Assembly: GCF_000284095.1 (NCBI RefSeq)
Contig: NC_017068.1
Coordinates: 1,302,001-1,366,000, forward strand
Source: Selenomonas ruminantium subsp. lactilytica TAM6421
GTDB taxonomy: Bacteria > Bacillota > Negativicutes > Selenomonadales > Selenomonadaceae
DNA: 64,000 bases
Reading direction: 5' to 3'
The notes under the pieces are model-generated. The model did not search any database. It saw only the letters and a program-made list of their open reading frames with translations, and was not told the origin of the DNA. Position 1 is the first letter of the stretch. The number at the start of each line of letters is the position of its first letter. This document shows, piece by piece, positions 36,600 through 51,030 of this stretch. A program made the translations under genes and the position numbers.

Positions 36600-36615
36600 G
36601 GAAAGGAACGGCACT

Positions 36616-37329
36616 ATGAGGAAAGCAACACCAAAGGTTAGGCTATATCTGGCACAGCAGGTGTTGGAGCAATATTATAAGGGAACTGACGAACCGAGTG
36701 AAGCGCAGAAGGCTTGGATGAATAAATTGTATGGGAACAACCCGGACAGTAGGGGAATAAGGAAATTGCGTATGCGCCTGCTGGATAGGGAATGCAGTGA
36801 GATTATCGTAAGTGCAGTCATTGCGGATGCCACGCAGGAGGAAAAGATATTCCTGCGGGATAAGTACAAACTACGCCGTAATTTCACGGCCATAAGCTGC
36901 AGGCTCCATGTGCATGTCAATGGACTGCAGCGTTGGCGGGATAGATTCCTCAATGAGATTGCGCAGATGCTGAATTATGAACTGCCAGAACGGGATGTAT
37001 GGTCATATCGTAAGGTAGGGGCACTCATTAAGGTACTGGAGCGCAATATAGAGTTCCTGGAACAAAATGATGAGGAAACGGATAAGGATTCGTTAAAGCG
37101 GCTTTGCGCATTAAGAGATCGATATCGCATTCTACATGCTGGTATGGAGAAATATCTGTTTTCTGAGTCTGATTCCACGAGGATAAGGGTTGTCAGGGAA
37201 CGTTTGCTCCATGTTGATCTGGGCTCAGCAGAACTTGCTGATTTTGTGGGGTTCTCCCATACGACAGTGGATTTGTGCCTGGCAGATTTTCTGAAGAAAT
37301 ACTATTATCTTGGTGCTGGGGGGGCCTGA
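36616..37329 (+). CDS. hypothetical protein with putative sigma-region-4-like HTH
   Basis: Basic helical protein of 237 residues that I cannot name. The segment ~70-125 (IVSAVIADATQEEKIFLRDKYKL...LHVHVNGLQRWRDRFLNEI) resembles HTH elements of phage late-gene regulators/ArpU or sigma region 4. A second possible HTH is near the C-terminus (VDLGSAELADFVGFSHTTVDLCLADFL). Start ATG 36616 behind AAAGGAA. It lies between the parB/palindrome and AbiE genes. Confidence 0.7.
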   Translation: MRKATPKVRLYLAQQVLEQYYKGTDEPSEAQKAWMNKLYGNNPDSRGIRKLRMRLLDRECSEIIVSAVIADATQEEKIFLRDKYKLRRNFTAISCRLHVHVNGLQRWRDRFLNEIAQMLNYELPERDVWSYRKVGALIKVLERNIEFLEQNDEETDKDSLKRLCALRDRYRILHAGMEKYLFSESDSTRIRVVRERLLHVDLGSAELADFVGFSHTTVDLCLADFLKKYYYLGAGGA

Positions 37330-37363
37330 ATACAAAATGGGTGTTTCTGGATATGTCATTGAA

Positions 37364-37460
37364 GTAATAACTCACATATAATTATATAATGTGAGTTATT
37401 ACATAAATGTTGACAGTGAGATAAAGAAATCGATATAATAATTTCAGTAAAAACTCACAT
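37364..37460 (+). promoter_or_regulatory. operator-promoter of the AbiE operon
   Basis: Perfect 14-bp inverted repeat GTAATAACTCACAT / ATGTGAGTTATTAC (37364-37377 and 37389-37402, 11-base spacer), then -35 TTGACA (37410-37415), 18-base spacer, -10 TATAAT (37434-37439). A further half-site ACTCACAT at 37453-37460 lies just downstream of the -10. Known AbiEi antitoxins repress their own promoter by binding inverted repeats around it, so this arrangement fits autoregulation. Confidence 0.8.
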
Positions 37461-37504
37461 TGTATAACGAAGTGTGTGCTGACAGTAAAATGGAGGTCTT
37501 AAAC

Positions 37505-38047
37505 ATGCTTATGCCATATGCAGAGGCCGTAAAAGAATATGGTTCAGGATACAAGCTGAAAAAGGCTGTGAATTTGGGAGAAATATATAAACTTTCGCCT
37601 GGGGTTTATGCCCGGCGGTCTACGGCCACAGAGATGGAAAAGCTGCAAGTAAGGTATAAGACGGCCATATTTACCATGGATAGTGCCTTTTATTTTCTCG
37701 GACTGACGGATGTAGTGCCGGAGAAGTGGCATATGGCTACAGCCCGTAATTCAACTCGCATACCCAGCGAAAAGGTACATCAGTACTTTGAAACTGCCAA
37801 CTATTATGGAATTGGCAAATCTATGGTAGATTTCAATGGCGCTGAACTCCGCTGCTATGATCAGGAGCGTATGCTCTTGGAGCTGGTGCGACATAGAAAA
37901 ACGATGCCGTTCGATTTTTACAAGGAAATTGTACAAAGCTATCGCAGGCGCTATGAGAGCATAGATTACGGCAAATTGGATGATTATATTGATGCTATGC
38001 AAAGCCGTACTGATTTTTACGATGTTATACAACGGGAGATTTTCTGA
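37505..38047 (+). CDS. abiEi: AbiEi family antitoxin / transcriptional autoregulator
   Basis: Protein of 180 residues. The start is ATG 37505 behind GGAGG (37492-37496); an earlier in-frame TTG lies in the operator and is unlikely. The N-terminus (YAEAVKEYGSGYKLKKAVNLGEIYKLSPGVYAR) is the short winged helix of AbiEi proteins. The C-terminal part includes LTDVVPEKWHMAT and YDQERMLLELVRHRKTMPFDFYKEIVQSYRR (pattern only), typical of the family. AbiE is a type IV toxin-antitoxin/abortive infection system. The stop codon overlaps the toxin gene. Confidence 0.9.
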   Translation: MLMPYAEAVKEYGSGYKLKKAVNLGEIYKLSPGVYARRSTATEMEKLQVRYKTAIFTMDSAFYFLGLTDVVPEKWHMATARNSTRIPSEKVHQYFETANYYGIGKSMVDFNGAELRCYDQERMLLELVRHRKTMPFDFYKEIVQSYRRRYESIDYGKLDDYIDAMQSRTDFYDVIQREIF

Positions 38048-38859
38048 TGAAACTGAAAGATATGATAAAGGCCTACGAAGATGAAGGCTATGATAATGTG
38101 CAGGCGCAGGCTCGTGTGAGCCAGGACGTAGTGGTAATGAATATTGCTGCCAGCTCTTTGAAACGGAATGTTACGATCAAAGGCGGCGTGGTCATGCATA
38201 ATATGTCGCATGACAGCCGCCGAGCAACGCAGGATATCGATTTTGACTTTATACATTACTCTCTGTCGGATGAATCCATACGATTGTTTCTGGATAAGAT
38301 AAGCAATGCAGAGTTCAAGTTGGAGCCGACAGGTGAGATAGAAGAACTGCGGCAGCAGGACTATCACGGCAAACGAGTTCATATTGTGATAACGGATGTG
38401 GATGGTACCACGATAAAGACAAAAATGGATATTGGGGTGCATAAGAATCTGTCCATAGAGCAGGATGAATACTGTTTTGATATTGCCTATCTCGATGACG
38501 GCCCTACTGTATTAATCAACTCCAAGGAGCAGATGTTCACGGAGAAGCTGCGGTCAATCCTTAAATTTGGCCCCACGTCCACCCGCTACAAGGATATCTT
38601 CGACATGTACTATTTGGCGCAGTTATCTGGTATGAGCTGGGAGAAGCTGCGGGCATGCATTAAGCTGTTGATTTTTGATGATGAGGGTATGAGAGAAAAT
38701 ACGCCGGAGGAAATGCTGCGGCGTATACAGCGGACACTTAGCAATCGCATCTATCGGCAAAAACTTAGCCGTGCCCGCAAGAATTGGCTGGATGTAGATA
38801 GTGATACGGTTTTGGAGCAGCTGCTGACCTTCCTGGAAAACGTGCTCAAAAAGCCATAA
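38047..38859 (+). CDS. abiEii: AbiEii family nucleotidyltransferase toxin
   Basis: Nucleotidyltransferase-fold toxin of 270 residues. Motif I/II is visible around residues 45-67: a Gly-Gly (IKGGVVMHN), then RRATQDIDFDF carrying the DxD metal ligands. A third carboxylate lies in TKMDIGVHK, and MFTEKLRSILKFGPTSTRYKDIFDMYYL is the conserved helical part with the family's K...D motif. AbiEii/MenT proteins transfer nucleotides (to tRNA in MenT). All catalytic residues seem present, so the toxin is probably active. Confidence 0.92.
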   Translation: MKLKDMIKAYEDEGYDNVQAQARVSQDVVVMNIAASSLKRNVTIKGGVVMHNMSHDSRRATQDIDFDFIHYSLSDESIRLFLDKISNAEFKLEPTGEIEELRQQDYHGKRVHIVITDVDGTTIKTKMDIGVHKNLSIEQDEYCFDIAYLDDGPTVLINSKEQMFTEKLRSILKFGPTSTRYKDIFDMYYLAQLSGMSWEKLRACIKLLIFDDEGMRENTPEEMLRRIQRTLSNRIYRQKLSRARKNWLDVDSDTVLEQLLTFLENVLKKP

Positions 38860-38931
38860 GAAAAGGTATACTTTTCGTAGGTTGGATGCATCCTCAACTC
38901 AGTATATGATATTGGGCGAGGAGTGATGAAC

Positions 38932-39534
38932 ATGGATCAATATGTAACTGGCAGTATTATCAAACGGCTTCGCGAAAGCAGAAAGATGACGCAATTGCAG
39001 CTGGCAGAAGCGCTCAATGTAAGTGACAAGACGATATCCAAATGGGAAAACGGGCGCGGTTATCCTGATATCGCTTTATTGGAACCACTGGCCAAGACTC
39101 TGAGATTGTCTGTCTCAGAACTCCTGGCTGGCGAAAGTATCAGCAATACCAATCGTTGTTTCAACATGAAGAAGATAAAGTTTTATGTATGCCCTATCTG
39201 TGGCAATGTTATAATAACCACAGGACGGGCTGCTATCAGCTGCTGCGGCATAATGCTTCCGGATTTGGAGCCGGAGACGGCTGATTCAACTCATACGGTT
39301 CATGTTGAACAGGTAGAAGACGAATATTACGTTGCCATAGATCATGAGATGGGTAAGAAGCATTACATATCGTTTGTGGTTGCTGTCAAAGAAGACGGAT
39401 ATGATTTGAAGAAGTTTTATCCAGAAGGTGCGGCAGAGGCGCGGTTTAAGCGGAGCAATGTTCGAAATTTGTATTATTACTGCAATCAGCATGGCTTGTT
39501 TCAGATACCGTTAGGTTCTGTTAAAAGCAGGTGA
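38932..39534 (+). CDS. HTH regulator fused to a desulfoferrodoxin-like domain
   Basis: Protein of 200 residues starting at ATG 38932 (GAGGAG nine bases upstream). Residues ~5-65 are an XRE HTH (LRESRKMTQLQLAEALNVSDKTISKWENGRGYPD). Residues ~80-115 carry a desulforedoxin-like metal knuckle (FYVCPICGNVI...ISCCGIML, CxxC plus CC). The C-terminal part HTVHVEQVEDEYYVAIDHEMGKKHYISFVV recalls the superoxide-reductase iron centre. Probably an iron-containing redox-responsive regulator; the two genes that follow are flavodoxin-like and GNAT proteins. Confidence 0.85.
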   Translation: MDQYVTGSIIKRLRESRKMTQLQLAEALNVSDKTISKWENGRGYPDIALLEPLAKTLRLSVSELLAGESISNTNRCFNMKKIKFYVCPICGNVIITTGRAAISCCGIMLPDLEPETADSTHTVHVEQVEDEYYVAIDHEMGKKHYISFVVAVKEDGYDLKKFYPEGAAEARFKRSNVRNLYYYCNQHGLFQIPLGSVKSR

Positions 39535-39576
39535 GCATAAGCTGAGAGCAGGCGGTATTGGTTTGCAGGAGGGCTG

Positions 39577-40119
39577 ATGATGAGCAGGATTGTTGTATTG
39601 GTAGGCAGTAATCGAAAAGGTGGCAATACGGATTTGTTGGCAAAGGCGTTTGCTGATGGTGCCCGTGAGCATCATGAGGTGGAGCTGATATCCGTAACAG
39701 ATTACAAGGTGGGGCCTTGTCTTGGATGTAACAGCTGTTTTCAGAAGGAAGGTCATCCCTGCTTTCAGCAGGATGATATGCAGCTGATATATGACAAGCT
39801 AAAAGAGGCCGATATACTGGTCGTTGCCTCACCGGTATATTTTTACGGACTCAGTGCCCAGTTGAAGGCTGTTATCGACCGCCTGCATAATCCTATCCGG
39901 GATACATTTAAGATTCGGAAATTAGCTATGCTGCTGGTAGGTGCGGCAACACTGCCTGAACTTTTCGATGCAATACTTGCGCAGTACAAGCTGGTATTGA
40001 ATTTCTTCAAGTTGGAGGATGGAGGGACAGTGCTGGTGCGCGGTGCTAAGGAAAAAGGGGATGTTCGGCAGGGGAACAGCCTGCAGCAGGCATTTCAGTT
40101 GGGAAAGACCATTTCTTGA
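39577..40119 (+). CDS. flavodoxin-family NAD(P)H-dependent oxidoreductase
   Basis: FMN-binding fold of 180 residues: VLVGSNRKGGNTDLLAKAF is the phosphate-binding loop, and CLGCNSCFQKEGHPCFQQDDM is the Cys-rich insert seen in iron-sulfur flavoproteins and NADPH-FMN reductases, followed by ILVVASPVYFYGLSAQLKAVIDRL. Located 42 bases behind the HTH-desulfoferrodoxin regulator and likely its target. Confidence 0.88.
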   Translation: MMSRIVVLVGSNRKGGNTDLLAKAFADGAREHHEVELISVTDYKVGPCLGCNSCFQKEGHPCFQQDDMQLIYDKLKEADILVVASPVYFYGLSAQLKAVIDRLHNPIRDTFKIRKLAMLLVGAATLPELFDAILAQYKLVLNFFKLEDGGTVLVRGAKEKGDVRQGNSLQQAFQLGKTIS

Positions 40120-40129
40120 TAGATTGACT

Positions 40130-40585
40130 ATGGAGACAGCATTGGTGCGAATATATAAAGAGCTGGATAAATGGAAGCACAGGCATTTGCTGTTACTGGC
40201 AGATGAGCAGGAAAGTATGGTTGAGAAGTATTTGGCTTCTGGTACGATGTATGTGCTGGAGGATTCCGGGGTAAAGGCTGAATGCGTGGTTACCGATGAG
40301 GGAAATCATGTGCTGGAAATAAAGAATATCGCCGTTATGCCAAAATCACAGGGCTATGGTTATGGGAAAAAGCTCATTGGCTTTTTGGTAAAACAGTATG
40401 CGGGCAATTATGATTATATTCAGGGTGGCACCGGAGATAGTCCCCTTACTATACCCTTTTACGAACATTGTGGCTTTACCCGTTATGATGTACGGAAAAA
40501 TTTCTTTCTGGATAATTACGACCATGTTATCGTTGAAGGAGGGAAACAGTTGGTTGATATGGTGTTGTTGCACAGGAAGATTTGA
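40130..40585 (+). CDS. GNAT family N-acetyltransferase
   Basis: Acetyl-CoA-dependent acetyltransferase of 151 residues. The acetyl-CoA loop is in IAVMPKSQGYGYGKKLIGFLV; the C-terminal GGTGDSPLTIPFYEHCGFTRY is the usual beta5-alpha4 part. Start taken at ATG 40130 after the flavodoxin stop. Substrate unknown. Third gene of the redox mini-cluster. Confidence 0.85.
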   Translation: METALVRIYKELDKWKHRHLLLLADEQESMVEKYLASGTMYVLEDSGVKAECVVTDEGNHVLEIKNIAVMPKSQGYGYGKKLIGFLVKQYAGNYDYIQGGTGDSPLTIPFYEHCGFTRYDVRKNFFLDNYDHVIVEGGKQLVDMVLLHRKI

Positions 40586-40667
40586 CGGATGGTTTTTTGA
40601 GCCTTTACGATTAACTTGGAAATATACGAAAAATGAGGATGTGGACAAATGCTGTTCACATCCTCTT

Positions 40668-40690
40668 AGGATGTTAATTATTAACATCCT
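40668..40690. repeat. palindrome 2 (candidate parS)
   Basis: AGG-ATGTTAATTATTAACAT-CCT, 23 bases perfect around 40679. It overlaps the final codons and stop of the AP2-like frame on the minus strand, so the site is embedded in coding sequence. Confidence 0.8.
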
Positions 40691-40965
40691 GAGTTATCCA
40701 GTTGTTGGATGAGGGGCGCAAAGTATTGCTCCTCAGCGTCAAGGCGGGCACGTATGACATCTTCAAGTGTCGGGAAATGACCAATGTAGTGATATATGCC
40801 CTGACTGGTAATCGCTACTTCATAGGCGTTGTGATTTAAGCGTTTTTGCATGTGGATGTCCCTTATACCAGTGTTGCTGTTGGACTTGTGGTAACGGATA
40901 GAATCGTTGGTTTTTAGCTTTTGGGCTGCTGGCTCCCGTGGAGCGGCCATTTTTTGAGGTTGCAT
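40681..40965 (-). CDS. AP2-like DNA-binding domain, -1 frame continuation of the nine-module protein
   Basis: Open frame of about 94 codons whose central part, KLKTNDSIRYHKSNSNTG then YEVAITSQGIYHYIGHFPTLEDVIRARLDAEE, has the AP2/integrase-type DNA-binding fold pattern (N-T-G-I-R, three strands with Y-x-x-I-x-x-x-G-x-x-x-Y-x-G-x-F, then the helix). It has no ribosome-binding site. It overlaps the end of the nine-module frame by 52 bases and the two frames meet at an A6 run. The decayed paralogue at 45,470-46,445 carries the same domain joined to the modules. Best read as the C-terminal domain of one longer protein reached by frameshift, slippage or broken by a mutation. Confidence 0.75.
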   Translation of the reverse strand: MQPQKMAAPREPAAQKLKTNDSIRYHKSNSNTGIRDIHMQKRLNHNAYEVAITSQGIYHYIGHFPTLEDVIRARLDAEEQYFAPLIQQLDNSGC

Positions 40966-42614
40966 CCGCAGCTCCGTTTAATTCCCTGAGTGAGCTGGGA
41001 TGTGGTAGCAAGTGTGTATTCACCGCAGTCACAGAGGCAAAGAAGCCTGAAATCATGGGGACTGATTTCGAGAATTCGTTTAACCGTTAGGTGATGAAAG
41101 CGTTTTCCGATAAGAGTTTCCTTATTTTGCAGGCGAAGATATTTGCAATTACGGCCACAGGTGGCTTTCTGATTGTTAATGAGTTGGCTGGTAGAGAGAT
41201 ATACGTCGTTACCGCAATCACAGAAACAATGCCACTTGGACTTATAGTCGGTGTCGCTACTGCGGGCGATAACAGTAAGGTGGCCAAAGCGTTTTCCTGT
41301 TAAATCTATGGATGCTTTATCCCTGATAGACTTAAGGCATCCGCATGAGGAATAAGCACCTCTGAGAAATGCAGAGGTAGTTACTTCGAAAGTGTTGCCA
41401 CAGTCACATCGGCAAATCCAGCTTGATTTGCGGAGTGGGTTGTTACTGTGGGAGATAACCGTTAGATGCTTGATGTGTTTCCCGATGAGATCGGGGATAT
41501 GGAATTTTCGGTTGCGTGATCTGCTGCAGCCACAACTGATATCATGGCCATTAAGCAGGCGACTGGTGGTAAGCGAGACTTCATTGCCACATTCGCAGCG
41601 GCAAATCCAGGTTCTTGTTCGCTTAGGGTTGCGATGTCGGGAAATGACGGTTAATCTGCCAAATTTTTGTCCTATAAGGTCAATGATCTCTAGTTCCGAG
41701 GTTCCTGTGTGGCACCCACAGCTTCGAAGACCTTTTAGGAGAAGACTGGTTCTTAGATAGACTTCGTTGCCGCAGTCACAACGGCAAAGCCAGTTTGATC
41801 TATAAAGCGGATTTTTGTTGCGGGCGATAACGGTTAAATGTCCAAAGCGTTCACCGACAAGATTCAGCGTGTTTAAATAATTGGTTCCAGTGACACATCC
41901 ACAGCTGCGTCGCCTGCCTGTGATCAGGCTTGTGGCAGAAAAATACCCTTCATTGCCGCAATCACAACGACAGAGCCATTGGGATTTATGAAGCGGATCG
42001 GGATGGCGTGCGATGACTTTTAGGTGTCCGAATTGCCTGCCGGTAAGGTCAAATAGCGTATATTTCCTTACACGTTGGCTGCAGCCGCAACTCTTTACTC
42101 CGCCTCGCAGATCGCTGGTGAGAAGATAGATTTCCTTACCGCAGTCACAGCGACAAAGCCAACTAGATGTACGGCGTGGGCGGGAATCCCTGACAATAAC
42201 TGTGAGATAGCCAAAACGCTGGCCAACAAGGTCAAGATTTTGTATTTCTTTGGTGCCCGTTTTACATCCACAACTGCGTCGCTTACCTTTGATTAAAGGA
42301 CCGGTGTAGAAATAAACATCATTGCCGCAATCGCAATGGCAGAGCCACTTGGTGTTGTTGCGAGCGGAATTATCGCGAGAAATAACAGTCAGGTGGCCAA
42401 ATCTTTGTCCGGTAAGGTCAATCGATGAATATTTATCACTAAAGTGACTGCAGCCACAGCTTTTTATTCCTCGCACCAAGTCACTGGTGATGACATAGAT
42501 TTCCTTGCCACAGTCACAGCGACACAACCAGCTGCCCCTGTGCAGGGAACGTGGATCTTTAGCTATGACGGTCAGATGTCCAAAGCGGTCGCCGATGTTG
42601 ATCGTGGTGTTCAT
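40914..42614 (-). CDS. protein of nine tandem CDCG/CGC cysteine modules
   Basis: A 566-residue protein consisting entirely of nine consecutive modules of about 62 residues. Each begins D-L-x-G-x-R-F-G-H-L-T-V-I, continues to W-L-C-R-C-D-C-G-N-E, then a Ser/Thr-rich strand and ends R-S-C-G-C: five Cys per module, suggesting metal binding. Module 8 has an altered end (TCGRNCKYL) and module 9 a variant start (IGKRFHHLTV). Similar single modules occur in phage proteins, often beside HNH or AP2 domains; no HNH nuclease is seen here. ATG at 42614 behind AGAAGGA. DNA-binding is inferred from the attached AP2-like frame. Confidence 0.9.
   Translation of the reverse strand: MNTTINIGDRFGHLTVIAKDPRSLHRGSWLCRCDCGKEIYVITSDLVRGIKSCGCSHFSDKYSSIDLTGQRFGHLTVISRDNSARNNTKWLCHCDCGNDVYFYTGPLIKGKRRSCGCKTGTKEIQNLDLVGQRFGYLTVIVRDSRPRRTSSWLCRCDCGKEIYLLTSDLRGGVKSCGCSQRVRKYTLFDLTGRQFGHLKVIARHPDPLHKSQWLCRCDCGNEGYFSATSLITGRRRSCGCVTGTNYLNTLNLVGERFGHLTVIARNKNPLYRSNWLCRCDCGNEVYLRTSLLLKGLRSCGCHTGTSELEIIDLIGQKFGRLTVISRHRNPKRTRTWICRCECGNEVSLTTSRLLNGHDISCGCSRSRNRKFHIPDLIGKHIKHLTVISHSNNPLRKSSWICRCDCGNTFEVTTSAFLRGAYSSCGCLKSIRDKASIDLTGKRFGHLTVIARSSDTDYKSKWHCFCDCGNDVYLSTSQLINNQKATCGRNCKYLRLQNKETLIGKRFHHLTVKRILEISPHDFRLLCLCDCGEYTLATTSQLTQGIKRSCGCNLKKWPLHGSQQPKS
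40950..40955 (-). other. A6 run at the frame transition (slippage candidate)
   Basis: On the minus strand the nine-module frame reads CTC AAA AAA TGG here. A -1 slip, or one extra A in the mRNA or DNA, continues as ATG GCC into the AP2-like frame. Could be programmed slippage, phase variation, a fixed mutation, or a homopolymer sequencing error. Confidence 0.6.
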
Positions 42615-42735
42615 GATATTTTCCTTCTAACAATAGTCATAGGCGTAATGGCGAAGAAAATTTTATTGAGTGTTGATAATATAATGTTGATGATTACGCG
42701 AAGACCTTGGACAGGCTTATAATAGGAAATGTTAT

Positions 42736-44271
42736 TTAATGAATGTCTTTTTCTAGACTACAAAGATTTTTAATTGGATAATCACAGGAGTTTGGTTTAA
42801 AAAACTCTACGCTAGGCGATCTTTTAAAGGCCATACAATTAATAGGAAATACGTATTTTGAACGTCCAACAGTGGTAATGATTTGATAACCTTTTTTCGA
42901 AATCTCTGTCATTTTTGATCCATTAGGGTGACCATGGGTGTTGCATATTCCATAACTAACAATCGCTATTGGATGTTTGTTGTTGTTTGGGGAAAAAGGA
43001 AATTTACCCATCTTTGATCCGTGATGTGAAACGATAACGTAGTCATAGTTAGAACTTTTCAATTGTTCGGGTATAATCTCATAATCACAATCACCGCATA
43101 GTATTGTGCGATGGGCGGAACTCTTAACAACCATTATTAATCCGAAATTGTTAGCACGAGTGATACCATTGGAAGATTTTCGCTGTCCTGTCCATATTTC
43201 TATACCGCAAAAGTTATTATCTTCTTTATTAAGGATGCGTGTTTGTATTAGTTCTTCATTGATAATGTGAACATTTTTATGTTCGGGTTTAATGAGTTCT
43301 AGGAATATTCGAAATGCATATGAAGATACTCTGTTTGCCTTTCGTTCAATTGTATTATCTTTTTTAAACCAAAGCGAATGTAAATCTGGAATAATCCATC
43401 TCTTAGTGTATACATTATCGTCCCATAATGATAATCCTAATATATGATCTGTATCCCAATGGGATAGAATAATAATATCGGGGAAATGATGCTCTAGTTC
43501 ATCTATAGCATTTTTAATTTCTTTTTGATTCTTTTCTGCTTTATATCTAGTTAATCCAACATCAAAATAGATTTTTTTATTATTAGATCCATTGAGTTTT
43601 ATACAATTTCCTTGTCCGATATTATAACAATATATACAATTTACAGATGCTGGTATTTTTTCATCTATAATTGTGTTGTTAAGCTTGTTTAAATATTCGC
43701 TTTTGTGCTTAAGAAAATAATTGGTCAAATCATCTTCTTCGTTAACATGTTCAGTCGTATCTTGGATATGGAATGTAACATCATTTTCCAAAACTGGACT
43801 GGCAGCAAACATTAAATGACCGTTTATTTCTAAACTATCGTCGCTGGATTTTTTATTGTCAATTTTTGGATTAATTATTCCGGTTAACCAGTGACTAGGT
43901 TTTGGATTCTTAAAATATATACGTAGTATTTCTATGATTAGATATAAAGGAACGCCATCACTGTAAAAACCGAGATAATATGGATGGTCGGATTCTATTT
44001 TATATTCCAAGCGTAGATCGAATTCTAAACTTAATTTTTTTTGATAAAATGGAAGATTCTTGGTCTTGTTGGTTATGTTATAATTATCAGTTAAAAATTT
44101 TTCAAGGCCGTCTATATCATCGTTTTCAATGAGCTCATCAAACTTCTGGTATTTATCTTTACCTAATAACTCACTTAAATTGCCCATAAGTTCATCATTG
44201 AAAATTGGACGTGCATAAAATCGTTCGTTGTTTAATTGTGTAAAATGTTCTCGAAATTCTTCTGGATTCAT
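42736..44271 (-). CDS. metallo-beta-lactamase-fold protein (ComEC/Rec2-like hydrolase domain)
   Basis: Protein of 511 residues. The N-terminal ~210 residues are an unrecognised, polar domain. The C-terminal ~300 residues form an MBL domain: IGQGNCIKLNG then IYFDVG, IIILSHWDTDHILGL (HxxxDH ligands), CGDCDYEII and VIVSHHGSKMG, as in the extracellular-type hydrolase domain of ComEC and in orphan MBL proteins in defence islands. No signal peptide or membrane helix, so it should act in the cytoplasm. Codons are AT-rich compared with neighbours, pointing to separate acquisition. It lies between the two CDCG-module genes. Confidence 0.82.
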   Translation of the reverse strand: MNPEEFREHFTQLNNERFYARPIFNDELMGNLSELLGKDKYQKFDELIENDDIDGLEKFLTDNYNITNKTKNLPFYQKKLSLEFDLRLEYKIESDHPYYLGFYSDGVPLYLIIEILRIYFKNPKPSHWLTGIINPKIDNKKSSDDSLEINGHLMFAASPVLENDVTFHIQDTTEHVNEEDDLTNYFLKHKSEYLNKLNNTIIDEKIPASVNCIYCYNIGQGNCIKLNGSNNKKIYFDVGLTRYKAEKNQKEIKNAIDELEHHFPDIIILSHWDTDHILGLSLWDDNVYTKRWIIPDLHSLWFKKDNTIERKANRVSSYAFRIFLELIKPEHKNVHIINEELIQTRILNKEDNNFCGIEIWTGQRKSSNGITRANNFGLIMVVKSSAHRTILCGDCDYEIIPEQLKSSNYDYVIVSHHGSKMGKFPFSPNNNKHPIAIVSYGICNTHGHPNGSKMTEISKKGYQIITTVGRSKYVFPINCMAFKRSPSVEFFKPNSCDYPIKNLCSLEKDIH

Positions 44272-44654
44272 TAGTAACCTCCAGTAAATTATAATGTTAT
44301 ATCATTTAAATGATAGCATAAATGTGTTCATATTTCTACGGTGGTGATGCAATATATTACAAAATTATAAGGGCTATATTTACAATTTAACGTTAAAAGT
44401 GTACAATATAAGTTAAAGGAAAATAATTTTGGATAAAGTATTTAGTTGAATTTAATGGAAAATAAAGGCTAGTCTAGGCTAGATTCAATAGCGCCAATGA
44501 TAGTGAGACAAGTAAGAGAGGTCGGTGATTAATGACTGGCAGATTGCGGGGGAATTGTTCTTTTTGATATATAAAATATTGCTGAGTTGATTGAAAATTT
44601 GGATAAAAATGGTTGTTGGATTATATGTTAAATAAAAAGAGGATTACATAATTT
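44272..44654. other. AT-rich intergenic region
   Basis: 383 bases between divergent genes. I see promoter-like AT-rich stretches but no gene, repeat of the local families, or RNA that I can support. Confidence 0.5.
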
Positions 44655-45398
44655 ATGAAAAACGAAAAGGAAATAACTATCGAATATTGTATCGATAAAA
44701 AGAAAATGTGCTGCATAACATCTATTGTTGTTTTATTATTGGTCAGCTCCTTGTATCAAGCAGAAATTATAGTGGGGGGATATGCTTATATACCGTTTTT
44801 GCTTTATGTGATATTTAAGTGTATTATAGCTCGTGGTCATTGGAGTAAATGGCATGAGAAATTACACAAAGAAGGGTTTTATTTTAAGAATAACAATGGA
44901 GATGTTATTATACATGCCGGTAAAATCTACACGAAATGCAAGGACGTCATATCTTTTATAAAATGTCTAAAGGGATTGCTGATTGATAAAAGGTGCTACA
45001 CGAAACGAAAAAGCTCCATCTCCATAAAAAATTATATGATGAGATTGCTGGCTGGTAAACGTTATTACACGAAATGTAAGGATGTACCTGTAAATAACTA
45101 TATAATTGGTTTATTGGCACCACTTGCAATGTATATGAGTTTATATTTATTATGGGGGGGGATAATGATAGTATTTCGTGATAACTTTAATATAAGTATA
45201 TATTTATATTATTTTTTAATATTTACTATATTAAACCCAGCTGTTTTTGGCTTTACGGAATTTATGTTTGATATTTGGGTGGCAGGAAAGTTGTTTCTCG
45301 CTACTATGAATAATAAAAAATTTAATGTTAGAACACCTAAACACTATAGATATGGCTATATACTTACCCCTCGCTTGTCAACAGAAGAAAATTTGTGA
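44655..45398 (+). CDS. hypothetical multi-pass membrane protein
   Basis: Protein of 247 residues, very AT-rich. Hydrophobic helices at about 18-37, 43-58, 150-175 and 185-210; between them a basic loop holds three similar Lys/Tyr/Cys-rich segments (YTKCKDV, CYTKRKSS, YYTKCKDV), a small internal repetition. No family recognised. Divergent from the MBL-fold gene; with that gene it forms the AT-rich island between the two CDCG-module genes. Confidence 0.65.
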   Translation: MKNEKEITIEYCIDKKKMCCITSIVVLLLVSSLYQAEIIVGGYAYIPFLLYVIFKCIIARGHWSKWHEKLHKEGFYFKNNNGDVIIHAGKIYTKCKDVISFIKCLKGLLIDKRCYTKRKSSISIKNYMMRLLAGKRYYTKCKDVPVNNYIIGLLAPLAMYMSLYLLWGGIMIVFRDNFNISIYLYYFLIFTILNPAVFGFTEFMFDIWVAGKLFLATMNNKKFNVRTPKHYRYGYILTPRLSTEENL

Positions 45399-45469
45399 AT
45401 CTGAATAAAACAATGTAATAATCATTTTTTATATGCGGACGAAGTGATGTTCTACTATTCAGTCGTTTG

Positions 45470-46445
45470 ATGAGTGGAGCAAAGTATTGCTCTTCGGCGG
45501 CAAGACGTGCATTTTAATAATCTTCAAGCGTTTGGAAGTGTCCAATGTAGTGGTACTTACCTTGGCTGGTAATCACTATTTCATTGTCATTTAAGCGTTT
45601 TCGATTGTGAATGCTTTTTATTCCTGTGTTGCTGTTGGCCTTATAATAACGGATAGAATCGTTAGTGTTTAATTTCTGAGCACGAGTAAGTATGTGGTGT
45701 ATAACCTTGGGGCGGGGCCGTATCCGCAAGTCGCAGCCACAGCTTCGCGTAAGCTCCATGGTATCGGCTAAGGTATCTCACCGCAATCGCAGCGGCATAG
45801 TAGCCTGAATGTATCTGGCTCTGTTTCTACGATTTTGGTAATGGTCAGATGGTGGAAACGTTTGCCAATCATGTTTTCCTTGGTACGAAGCAGGTGGTAT
45901 TGGCAGTTGCCGCAACTGGTGTATTTTCCTTTTAGAAGCGCAGAGGAATAAAAATACGCTTCATTACCGCAGTCACAGAGGCATTGCCAAAGAGATTTAT
46001 ATTTGGGATCGTTGCTGCGGGCAATAACGGTTAGATGGCCAAATCTTCTGCCGGTTAAATCTTCATGGGGATGCTTGGCGGCGTGATGAACACACCCGCA
46101 ACTGGTCTTTTTTCCTGCAAGTATGGTAGAGGCGTGTAACTCAATAGTATTGCCGCATTCACAGTGGCAGAGCCAGCTAGATTTTCTACGGGGATTAGGG
46201 CTTCTGGCAATGACAGTGAGGCGGCCAGTTTTTTTCCCTATAAGGTTTGTCTGTTCATTTCGATTTGTGCGATCAGTGCAGCCACAGCTCCTGTGGCTGC
46301 CTTTTAGCAATCTACAGGAGTAGGTATATATTTCATTACCACAATCACACCGGCAGAGCCAGCCGGCACTGTGATTGGGACGAGTATCTTTAGCTATGAC
46401 GGTAAGATGCCCGAAACGGTCACCGATATGGATGGTAGTAATCAT
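45470..46445 (-). pseudogene. decayed four-module CDCG + AP2-like paralogue
   Basis: Starts at 46445 behind GGAG and encodes four modules of the same kind as the nine-module protein. The first (GDRFGHLTVIAKD) and the last two (CGNCQYHL variant, then IGKRFHHLT) correspond closely to modules 1, 8 and 9 there. In the last module the frame is broken near 45770 (CDCGEIP then TAG); dropping to the adjacent frame restores TLADTMELTRSCGC and continues through KLNTNDSIRYYKANSNTG into the AP2-like domain. That domain is itself cut by an in-frame TAA at 45512-45514, after which homology goes on (ARLAAEEQYFAPLI). Two lesions make it a pseudogene. Confidence 0.8.
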
Positions 46446-46545
46446 GGCATACTCCTATAGTTATGCGGATATAACAGACGGCTAAGACGTTATTATAGCT
46501 TGATTATACCATGTTTTCAGGGGATTGCGCATGAATGGATGACAC

Positions 46546-46573
46546 AAAAAGCCCGCCAGTTGCTAGTGGCGGG
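46546..46573 (-). terminator. minus-strand rho-independent terminator
   Basis: Stem CCCGCCA/TGGCGGG with eight-base loop and five Ts on the minus strand, 28 bases behind the stop of the 54-residue gene. Confidence 0.88.
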
Positions 46574-46600
46574 TTTGGTAGGAATATAGAACTGGGGGTA

Positions 46601-46765
46601 TTAGCGATTCAAGTCAAAGTCTGCTACATGACAATCCATGAGCGTTGCGGGATCAACATTAGAGTAGACACCAGGACGAACTTCGAACATATTGAGGTTG
46701 TCGGAGTTTTCCTCCATAATTACACGGTTGTAATCTGCCACGAGGTTAAAAAGCATATTCATCAT
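46601..46765 (-). CDS. small acidic protein, 54 residues
   Basis: A short gene missed by length cut-offs. It reads MMNMLFNLVADYNRVI then continues to ...CHVADFDLNR, with AAGGAGCGG well placed before ATG 46765 and a terminator right behind its stop. Net acidic, with a hydrophobic N-terminal helix. No family recognised. The good ribosome-binding site and private terminator argue that it is real. Confidence 0.65.
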   Translation of the reverse strand: MMNMLFNLVADYNRVIMEENSDNLNMFEVRPGVYSNVDPATLMDCHVADFDLNR

Positions 46766-46941
46766 GATAATCCGCTCCTTCTTTGCTCATAAACTATATA
46801 TATGAACTACCATACTTTATATTTACTTATATTATGACACAGCAGGGGAATGATGTATAATATTGTTTTTTGATAGATATATAGGGGGATCCTATTGAAA
46901 ATATTAATGGAATAAGCTGTGACTGTTGGTTGAATGATACT

Positions 46942-46962
46942 CGATGTTAATAATTAACATCG
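46942..46962. repeat. palindrome 3 (candidate parS)
   Basis: CG-ATGTTAATAATTAACAT-CG, 21 bases perfect around 46952, just downstream of radC copy 1 (minus strand). Confidence 0.8.
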
Positions 46963-47001
46963 GTAATGACGGAAAATGTACGGAAGAGTCAGGGTGGCCT
47001 T

Positions 47002-47586
47002 TTAGGAAATAATGCCTCGCTCTTTCATACTGTAATATCTCTTGCGCCCGATGATGACATGATCTAAGACAGGGATGTCCATGATTTTACCTGCTTCGAC
47101 CAGCTGATTGGTAACGGAATAATCTTCGCCGCTTGGCGTGGGATCACCGCTGGGATGATTATGGACAAGGACGATGGAGGCACATGGATATTTTAATGTT
47201 TCAGAGAATACTTCTCTGGGATGAACGATTGAAGAGGTTAGTGAGCCGATGGATATGGTGGGGGTGGCCAGTACCTGCATATGTGTATTCAGCAGGGCAA
47301 TCATGAAATGTTCCTTCGTTTCATGGAGCAGTCTGGGAATAAAGAGATTTGCAACATCATTGGCGGTGTGAATAAATGGTTTTTCATCGGGAGATTCATT
47401 CAAAATGCGGCGGACAATCTCTTTTAAGGCATAGATCTTGGCAGCTTTTTTCATACCGATTCCCTTGATTGACAATGGCGCTGTCAAGATGTCCGAGATA
47501 TTATTGCAGGCAAGATTTTTGGCAGGTACGTTCAGCAGCGAAGCAAGCAGAGATTCATTTGATTCAAAGTACAAGTTTTTGTCCAT
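47002..47586 (-). CDS. radC: RadC-family JAB/MPN-domain protein, copy 1
   Basis: 194-residue protein from the ATG at 47586, behind GGAGGAA (the in-frame ATG 15 bases earlier overlaps that site). Helix-hairpin-helix region (LSIKGIGMKKAAKIYALKEIVRR) and then the JAMM metal site: VHPREVF, VLVHNHPSGDPTPSGED (HxH...D). RadC proteins of mobile elements are common; a DNA-repair role is no longer generally accepted and the activity is uncertain. About 60% of residues agree with copy 2 at 50,383. Confidence 0.93.
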   Translation of the reverse strand: MDKNLYFESNESLLASLLNVPAKNLACNNISDILTAPLSIKGIGMKKAAKIYALKEIVRRILNESPDEKPFIHTANDVANLFIPRLLHETKEHFMIALLNTHMQVLATPTISIGSLTSSIVHPREVFSETLKYPCASIVLVHNHPSGDPTPSGEDYSVTNQLVEAGKIMDIPVLDHVIIGRKRYYSMKERGIIS

Positions 47587-47779
47587 AGCGAATTCCTCCA
47601 TAGTGTGCAGGGAAAAGCTGTCTGTGATCAGCTTTTCCTTCAGCGTGTTGTCATTAAGCAGATTGATATCCGAAAGTGAACATTTGACGCGCTGGTTGGC
47701 TCACTCCTGCTGCATGGCGGTGGTTTGACTTTCCTTTGTGTCAGCTCTATACTATCTAACGTAGGAGGAGATGGAGTAG

Positions 47780-50382: not shown

Positions 50383-50967
50383 TTATGCCATGTTGCCCCT
50401 TTCTTTCATACTGCAATAATTTTTGTTGCCAATGATGATATGGTCTAAAATGGGGACGCTCATAATTTTGCCAGCTTTGCGCAGCCTTTCGGTAACGGCG
50501 ATGTCTTCCCTGCTGGGGGTGGGGTCGCCGCTGGGGTGGTTATGGACAAGGATTATGGAAGCGCAGGGATATTTTATCGCCTCTGCAAAAACTTCTCTTG
50601 GATGTACGACTGAAGCGGAAAGGGAACCAATGGAAATGGTGGGGGTAGCTATTATCTTGTTCTTGGTGTCCAGCAAGGCAAGCATAAACTGTTCCTTGGT
50701 CTTGTGGAGCATGATGGGCATAAAGAAATCGGCAACATCTTCGGGGCCGTGAATAGTGGGGGTATCATTGGGGGATTCCTCCATAATACGGCGCACGACT
50801 TCCTTGATGACATAGATTTTAGATGCCTTCTTCGTGCCAACCCCCGTTATTGACAAGGGCGCGGTCAAGATATCCGAGATGTTTTTGCAGGCAAGATTTT
50901 CAGCGGGGATATTCAGCAGAGTAGAAAGCAGGGTGGCATTGGATTCGTGGGTTAAATCTCGATTCAT
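50383..50967 (-). CDS. radC: RadC-family JAB/MPN-domain protein, copy 2
   Basis: 194 residues from ATG 50967, behind GGAGGAATTG. Same architecture as copy 1: helix-hairpin-helix (LSITGVGTKKASKIYVIKEVVRR) and JAMM residues in VLVHNHPSGDPTPSRED-type motif. Lies downstream of ssb on the same strand, with a hairpin in the 60-base gap, so the two are probably co-transcribed. Confidence 0.93.
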   Translation of the reverse strand: MNRDLTHESNATLLSTLLNIPAENLACKNISDILTAPLSITGVGTKKASKIYVIKEVVRRIMEESPNDTPTIHGPEDVADFFMPIMLHKTKEQFMLALLDTKNKIIATPTISIGSLSASVVHPREVFAEAIKYPCASIILVHNHPSGDPTPSREDIAVTERLRKAGKIMSVPILDHIIIGNKNYCSMKERGNMA

Positions 50968-51030
50968 GGTCAATTCCTCCATAATGGTACAGGGGGAGGC
51001 TGGTGGCCAGCCTCTTTCCCTGAATGATGG

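Follow-up and report, generated by a model that had tools for sequence, protein, structure and literature searches.

A nine-module cysteine-rich array with an adjacent AP2-like frame in Selenomonas ruminantium, related to the probable targeting arrays of phage homing endonucleases

In PMC10448857, T5orf172 homing endonucleases are described as using repeated CapR/DUF723/DUF4397 zinc fingers as 'beads on a string' for DNA targeting, and CapR as a phage-satellite repressor that is built of DNA-binding domains of homing endonucleases and has no nuclease. The same paper places AP2 at the C terminus of HNH-AP2 homing endonucleases such as IPA-HNH of ICP1, and reads the gp115/gp116 pair as a frameshifted homing endonuclease gene with AP2 in its second ORF. 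I-Bth0305I is given as an example of the EDxHD homing endonucleases in PMC3943268. Here we analysed a 64-kb window of the S. ruminantium subsp. lactilytica TAM6421 genome containing a gene, array A, that is composed like the T5orf172 enzymes of repeated small cysteine domains and for which CapR sets a precedent of nuclease-free re-use. Differences from the systems described in PMC10448857 lie in the cysteines (CxxC...CxC in T5orf172/CapR-type fingers versus CxCxCG...CGC in array A) and in repeat number (six in the phage Helene homing endonuclease genes, according to the Figure 6 legend, versus nine in the array A ORF), while the likeness to IPA-HNH is a C-terminal AP2, array A having nine modules and no nuclease. 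Neither DUF723 nor DUF4397 was found in array A by a Pfam scan up to E 1. A search by title and start of abstract, with most subscription journals outside its reach, found no paper on the CxCxCG/CGC module or its arrays, and we know of no assay of such a module.

Table 1. Features of the array locus, in window coordinates
Feature	Position	Strand	Basis
AbiEi/AbiEii pair	37460-38859	+	PADLOC E 5.3e-72 and 5.3e-119
AP2-like domain, 94 aa from own ATG, -1 frame relative to array A	40681..40965	-	ORF + profile
Six-A run where array A and AP2 frames meet	40950..40955	-	sequence
Array A, nine modules	40914..42614	-	ORF, 566 aa
Module 9, residues 501-551	40962..41114	-	sequence
Module 8, residues 438-490, CGRNC variant	41145..41303	-	sequence
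Module 7, residues 376-426	41337..41489	-	sequence
Module 6, residues 313-363	41526..41678	-	sequence
Module 5, residues 252-301	41712..41861	-	sequence
Module 4, residues 190-240	41895..42047	-	sequence
Module 3, residues 129-178	42081..42230	-	sequence
Module 2, residues 67-117	42264..42416	-	sequence
Module 1, residues 6-55	42450..42599	-	sequence
MBL-fold protein, upstream of array A by 121 bp, same strand	42736-44271	-	profile
Gene read as membrane protein, beside MBL gene in the A-B interval	44655-45398	+	
Array B AP2-like remnant, other frame, ended by internal stop	45514..45759	-	sequence
Array B, broken four-module paralogue losing its frame in module 4	45768..46445	-	ORF + profile

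Array A is a single ORF built of nine modules of about 62 residues of the CxCDCG/CGC type. Repeat starts (G..F..L(T/K)V-type, G.....L.V) fall at residues 8, 69, 131, 192, 254, 315, 378, 440 and 503, a spacing of 61-63 residues, and only five N-terminal residues, linkers of 10-12 residues and a 15-residue tail lie outside the modules. An HMM made from the modules of arrays A and B gave nine matches in array A, each with an i-E of at most 1.5e-25, and the PHROGs family phrog_374 ('HNH endonuclease') was matched in nine stretches (E 6.5e-132), the best of which, the sole one placed by the output, covers positions 194-256 of the 617-position profile. With the phrog_374 result independent of the HMM, the repeat is far beyond chance, which bears out the nine consecutive modules reported in the preliminary description of this DNA. 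That description also gave every module five cysteines, which holds, in a pattern of CxCxCG followed by CGC, which holds for eight of nine: C.C(D/E)CG occurs in all, but in module 8 C-G-R-N-C replaces CGC, leaving the cysteine count at five. Pairwise identity among the modules is 35-60%, each carries a positive net charge (+2 to +9), and the nine are read over 1.7 kb with no internal stop.

No nuclease domain was detected in array A or the 94-residue AP2 frame by Pfam, NCBIfam or inspection of the layout of the 566 residues, in keeping with the earlier view of a nine-fold array lacking a nuclease; because modules and linkers fill the protein there is no room for one, which is also where array A departs from the phrog_374 family whose module match it shares. 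The 'HNH endonuclease' labels returned by PHROGs are family names carried in by the modules. NCBIfam and PDB sequence searches with array A yielded nothing credible, weak PDB matches to HisF and TIM9 chains being rejected. PF08882 (acetone carboxylase gamma) scored above its cut-off (E 3e-7, 31.1 bits versus 21), yet none of its stretches passes individually, the best covering 16 residues at the cysteines; we have taken the score as a sum of short cysteine matches across repeats, with a remote link of the cysteine sites possible. Weak PF08882 matches recur around module cysteines in loci L025, L038, L148 and L127. Zero Rfam families passed threshold in the window, so that no group I intron was detected around array A; free-standing homing genes are also found without introns. 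We found no near-identical strain with an empty site, no common second flank in a comparison anchored on a GNAT gene (surroundings differ among the relatives examined), and no plasmid or phage record near-identical to positions 36600-47700.

The module itself is widespread, is common to several unrelated classes of homing endonuclease and has no Pfam model of its own. At E 1e-5 the array A protein was matched in 6 of 189 family genomes (an alternative genome set gave the same result), 16 of 380 class genomes and 16 of 398 phylum genomes, its own genome counted in each, as well as in 106 of 50,697 phage and 73 of 72,556 plasmid records. Our module census comprised 172 non-redundant ORFs at 173 loci, gathered by similarity (in one gathering the best 80 of 548 were kept) and therefore not a random sample; L003, L010 and L057 had been dropped as duplicates and L059-L061 as longer views of retained loci, and rows of eight and six modules in a companion count, which are cut copies of the window itself, were left out. 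One module was present in 112 ORFs, two in 36, three in 19, four in 3, five in 1 and nine in array A, the longest of those counted. Arrays of two to five modules occur in phages, plasmids and genomes. Partners, called by purpose-built HMMs or, for the other HNH type, by sequence pattern, were a DRID-type HNH alone in 71 ORFs, AP2 in 36 (5 also with DRID-type HNH), an EDxHD-like domain in 14 and another HNH type in 7; the 44 with none detected include array A (its AP2 being out of frame), array B, L004, L067 and ORFs cut by locus ends. L067, on a viral contig (2351-3886), joins three modules to LAGLIDADG_2 (E 4.6e-30). These array lengths, with EDxHD-like and LAGLIDADG partners besides HNH and AP2, overturn the statement in the preliminary description that such modules occur only singly, near HNH or AP2, as 60 of the 172 ORFs hold at least two. 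Nor do all homologues carry a nuclease, 31 of 172 having AP2 and no nuclease detected by our models; nuclease-free ORFs with three modules and AP2 are found at L011, L038, L039, L042 and L148.

Individual relatives illustrate this range. L037 has five modules followed by a domain matching a phrog 'homing endonuclease' (E 4.2e-23; a phrog 'intron encoded nuclease' also matched), which from its sequence type we take to be EDxHD-like, a domain that array A is without. The DRID-type partner in L006 is phrog_3377 'HNH endonuclease' (E 4.2e-50), and among the other HNH type L023 matches phrog 'endonuclease VII' (E 2.1e-13) and L024 matches Pfam HNH below the cut-off (E 0.005). Like array A, L004, L006, L011, L025, L026, L029, L037, L023, L067, L177 and L178 match phrog_374. 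Fusion to HNH, EDxHD-like, LAGLIDADG and AP2 domains together with variable repetition suggests that the module is a portable DNA-targeting unit of homing endonucleases. As to genomic setting, the five-module gene of L037/L060 (744-2018, bacterial contig), with its homing-endonuclease-like domain, lies near genes read as rimP-nusA-infB, and L061 has two module-nuclease genes among genes read as phage tail. Viral locus L178 (2441-5153) parallels the nine-fold array at the level of genes: three module matches are found in each of three adjoining ORFs, of which the third also has nuclease parts.

Structure prediction is consistent with small separate domains. AlphaFold2 modelled a module pair from 35 aligned sequences with a mean pLDDT of 89.7 (at least 90 at 80 of 116 residues) and a pTM of 0.52, so that the modules appear as confidently predicted small beta domains of uncertain mutual orientation, as expected of tethered beads. 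Compared with solved folds, the leading rows are Tudor/KOW/SH3-like (best Z 5.1, rmsd 2.5 A over 49 residues), which is a lead only; a second fold search gave no match at E 0.001 or better. Zinc-finger classes are absent from the 50 solved-fold rows listed, an absence that excludes nothing. In a viral fold search module-type phage proteins lead, with 86 matches at E 0.001 or better and several annotated as HNH, AP2 or restriction enzyme, but as sequence relatives they are not independent evidence. A sequence search found no solved structure of the CxCxCG/CGC module.

The 94-residue frame encodes an AP2-like domain, as had been proposed for the frame adjacent to the array. Pfam AP2 gave no match to this frame alone, but a profile of 22 aligned sequences (the window frame and 21 others) finds AP2/ERF structures of plants, with WRI1 as the top match (E 2e-12), and in PHROGs the frame matches phage families read as AP2-bearing from the searches with relatives. 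Its predicted model, of moderate confidence (mean pLDDT 70.5), has three strands and a helix in the AP2 order (beta-beta-beta-alpha). AP2 chains rank 1, 2 and 5 with VIA-align (7et4_J, Z 7.0, 2.5 A over 54 residues) and 2-5 with Foldseek at E 0.17-0.42, where no match reached E 0.001. The frame's ATG sits inside the last-module codons of array A with GGAG 6 nt ahead of it, and the junction offers a possible shift site, C AAA AAA T. As relatives keep array and AP2 in one frame, the separation seen here is not conserved; the break at the six-A run may reflect an error in sequencing, a mutation of recent date or a split that serves a function.

No array copies beyond A and B were found in the 3.63-Mb genome at E 0.01. 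In array B, module 4 contains a TAG and the AP2 part a TAA; a Pfam match of array B to PurK_C (E 0.22) was rejected as weak. Module 9 of array A (A9) is the clear counterpart of B4 (65% identity) and of the last module of L004 (74%), with tree support of 0.989. Elsewhere correspondence is looser: B1 is equally near A1 and A5 (54%), B2 is nearest A7 (50%, with A6 and A3 at 48%), for B3 A4 and A5 (52%) are slightly ahead of A8 (50%), and the first and second L004 modules are nearest A6, not A7, and A8 (56%), respectively. This indicates that the outer parts correspond and that the extra inner modules of array A were gained there or lost elsewhere. Likeness within array A (A1 and A3 60%, A2 and A4 53%, A4 and A5 57%) hints at internal duplication, which was not recent because dS is at least 1.8 or saturated in the 12 of 36 array A pairs listed (identity > 49%). 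Two ungapped DNA pairs at the outer ends of A and B show 76-79% identity (40695-40926 with 45456-45681 and 42495-42625 with 46326-46456); these alike ends, together with the lowest dS being that of A1/B1, perhaps reflect gene conversion or common outer parts.

Comparison of A with B and L004 gives uncorrected nonsynonymous change of 0.2-0.35 per site, with synonymous change near or past saturation everywhere except A1/B1 (dN 0.31, dS 1.07, the lowest dS of the A/B comparisons). The values are pN 0.31 and pS 0.79 for A7A8/B2B3, and dN 0.23 and dS 3.1 for the AP2 parts. Across 73 modules, cysteine columns 30, 32 and 55 never vary, and columns 28 and 61 are kept in 62 and 66 of the 73. Retention of the protein while silent sites changed heavily, with invariant cysteines, indicates that array and AP2 were long under selection.

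We regard it as probable that array A is a DNA-binding protein derived from the targeting arrays of phage homing endonucleases, with more modules and no nuclease, and likely acts by occupying DNA sites. The sequences show how the modules are built, what relatives fuse them to, prolonged purifying selection and the break in frame; DNA binding, zinc, base reading, the absence of cutting in the cell and a present function of array A are what we infer. Each core of about 51 residues would form a small beta domain, which a single zinc ion bound by the conserved cysteines probably holds together, and nine such beads with a C-terminal AP2 could cover an extended tract of duplex DNA, binding without cutting. 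In its mobile-element or defence region the protein would probably occupy a DNA site so as to repress or mask it, CapR being a comparable case. The earlier proposal of a modular nucleic-acid-binding protein also remains the best reading in our analysis, as suggested by fusions to several unrelated nucleases and AP2 and by the small separate predicted domains. Protein binding is an alternative that counts against DNA binding, the nearest folds of Tudor/KOW/SH3 type including peptide binders. It is improbable, in our estimate, that each of the nine domains reads its own few bp, the order of the modules thereby defining a target of roughly 30-60 bp, in the manner of TALE or zinc-finger proteins. 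Columns 17 and 36 behave as base-reading residues might, which is a hint only: they are 7% identical between modules and 60% the same across modules of A, B and L004 that are assumed to correspond in position, a comparison of few sequences that is partly driven by module 9 and in which the other counterparts are weakly supported. As it stands, array A belongs with the phage targeting arrays as a variant of unusual length that lacks a nuclease, and is not a new kind of system. Only if modules did read DNA singly would its novelty rise sharply, since phage homing endonucleases would then have given rise to an array like those of TALE or zinc-finger proteins, retained here in nuclease-free form. 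Either way it is a test case for the re-use of homing-endonuclease parts as plain DNA-binding proteins and, as the longest of the 172 ORFs and without a nuclease, a clean test object for sequence-specific DNA binding module by module.

The state of the gene bears on this reading. Array and AP2 probably used to form a single polypeptide and the gene may recently have split, in which case the present products would be the 566-residue array protein and possibly a separate 94-residue AP2 protein made by coupled re-initiation. An unlikely alternative is that array A serves no present function and is what remains of a mobile gene, related to homing endonucleases, whose frame was lost only just now. 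Such decay would account for the out-of-frame AP2, for array B with its lost frame and TAA, for the patchy presence in the family and genus (of the 22 same-genus genomes listed only 2 have it, its own being one of them), and for L004, a three-module fragment from the same genus that lacks AP2 and has no ATG ahead of its second module; it fits less well with nine stop-free modules that each keep five cysteines, with low nonsynonymous against high synonymous change, and with the single lesion found in A, which might itself be a sequencing error at a homopolymer. Decay and domestication agree equally well with the frame break in A, the broken B and the fragment L004, and our best reading is that array A is domesticated or starting to decay. 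It is also doubtful, although frames meeting at a homopolymer, single-frame relatives and constraint on the AP2 parts of both A and B all speak for it, that the assembly gives a wrong length for the A run and that the living cell makes one array-AP2 protein of about 640 residues, as the breaks in the neighbouring array B do not lie at six-A runs. Programmed frameshifting or coupled re-initiation, yielding a short array protein plus an array-AP2 or free AP2 protein, seems quite improbable: the position of the AP2 ATG behind GGAG and the shift site would allow it, but RNA folding downstream of the A run is no better than in shuffled sequences (z -0.62; 53 of 200 shuffles as good) and neither array B nor L004 keeps the shift site. 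Canonical slippery heptamers have the form X XXY YYZ, and the C AAA AAA T site, not being of that type, also counts against frameshifting.

We consider it very improbable that the preferred nuclease-free array instead guides a nuclease in trans, for instance the neighbouring MBL-fold protein. The closeness and shared strand of the two genes and resemblance of the MBL protein to ComEC/Rec2 (E 4.4e-9, below cut-off) and the PADLOC model LmuA (E 1.6e-10) favour such a two-part system, but the MBL protein was found in its own genome only (a single match among 60 relatives at E 1e-10 and again among 398 phylum genomes at E 1e-12), so its pairing with an array is without a second occurrence. The MBL protein also resembles the 6A-MBL and Avs1a models below cut-off, and one plasmid carries a weak relative of it. 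The nearby AbiEi/AbiEii pair places the arrays in a defence-type neighbourhood. Two RadC-like genes of 199 residues each (47002-47601 and 50383-50982, both on the minus strand) lie 3.4 kb apart.
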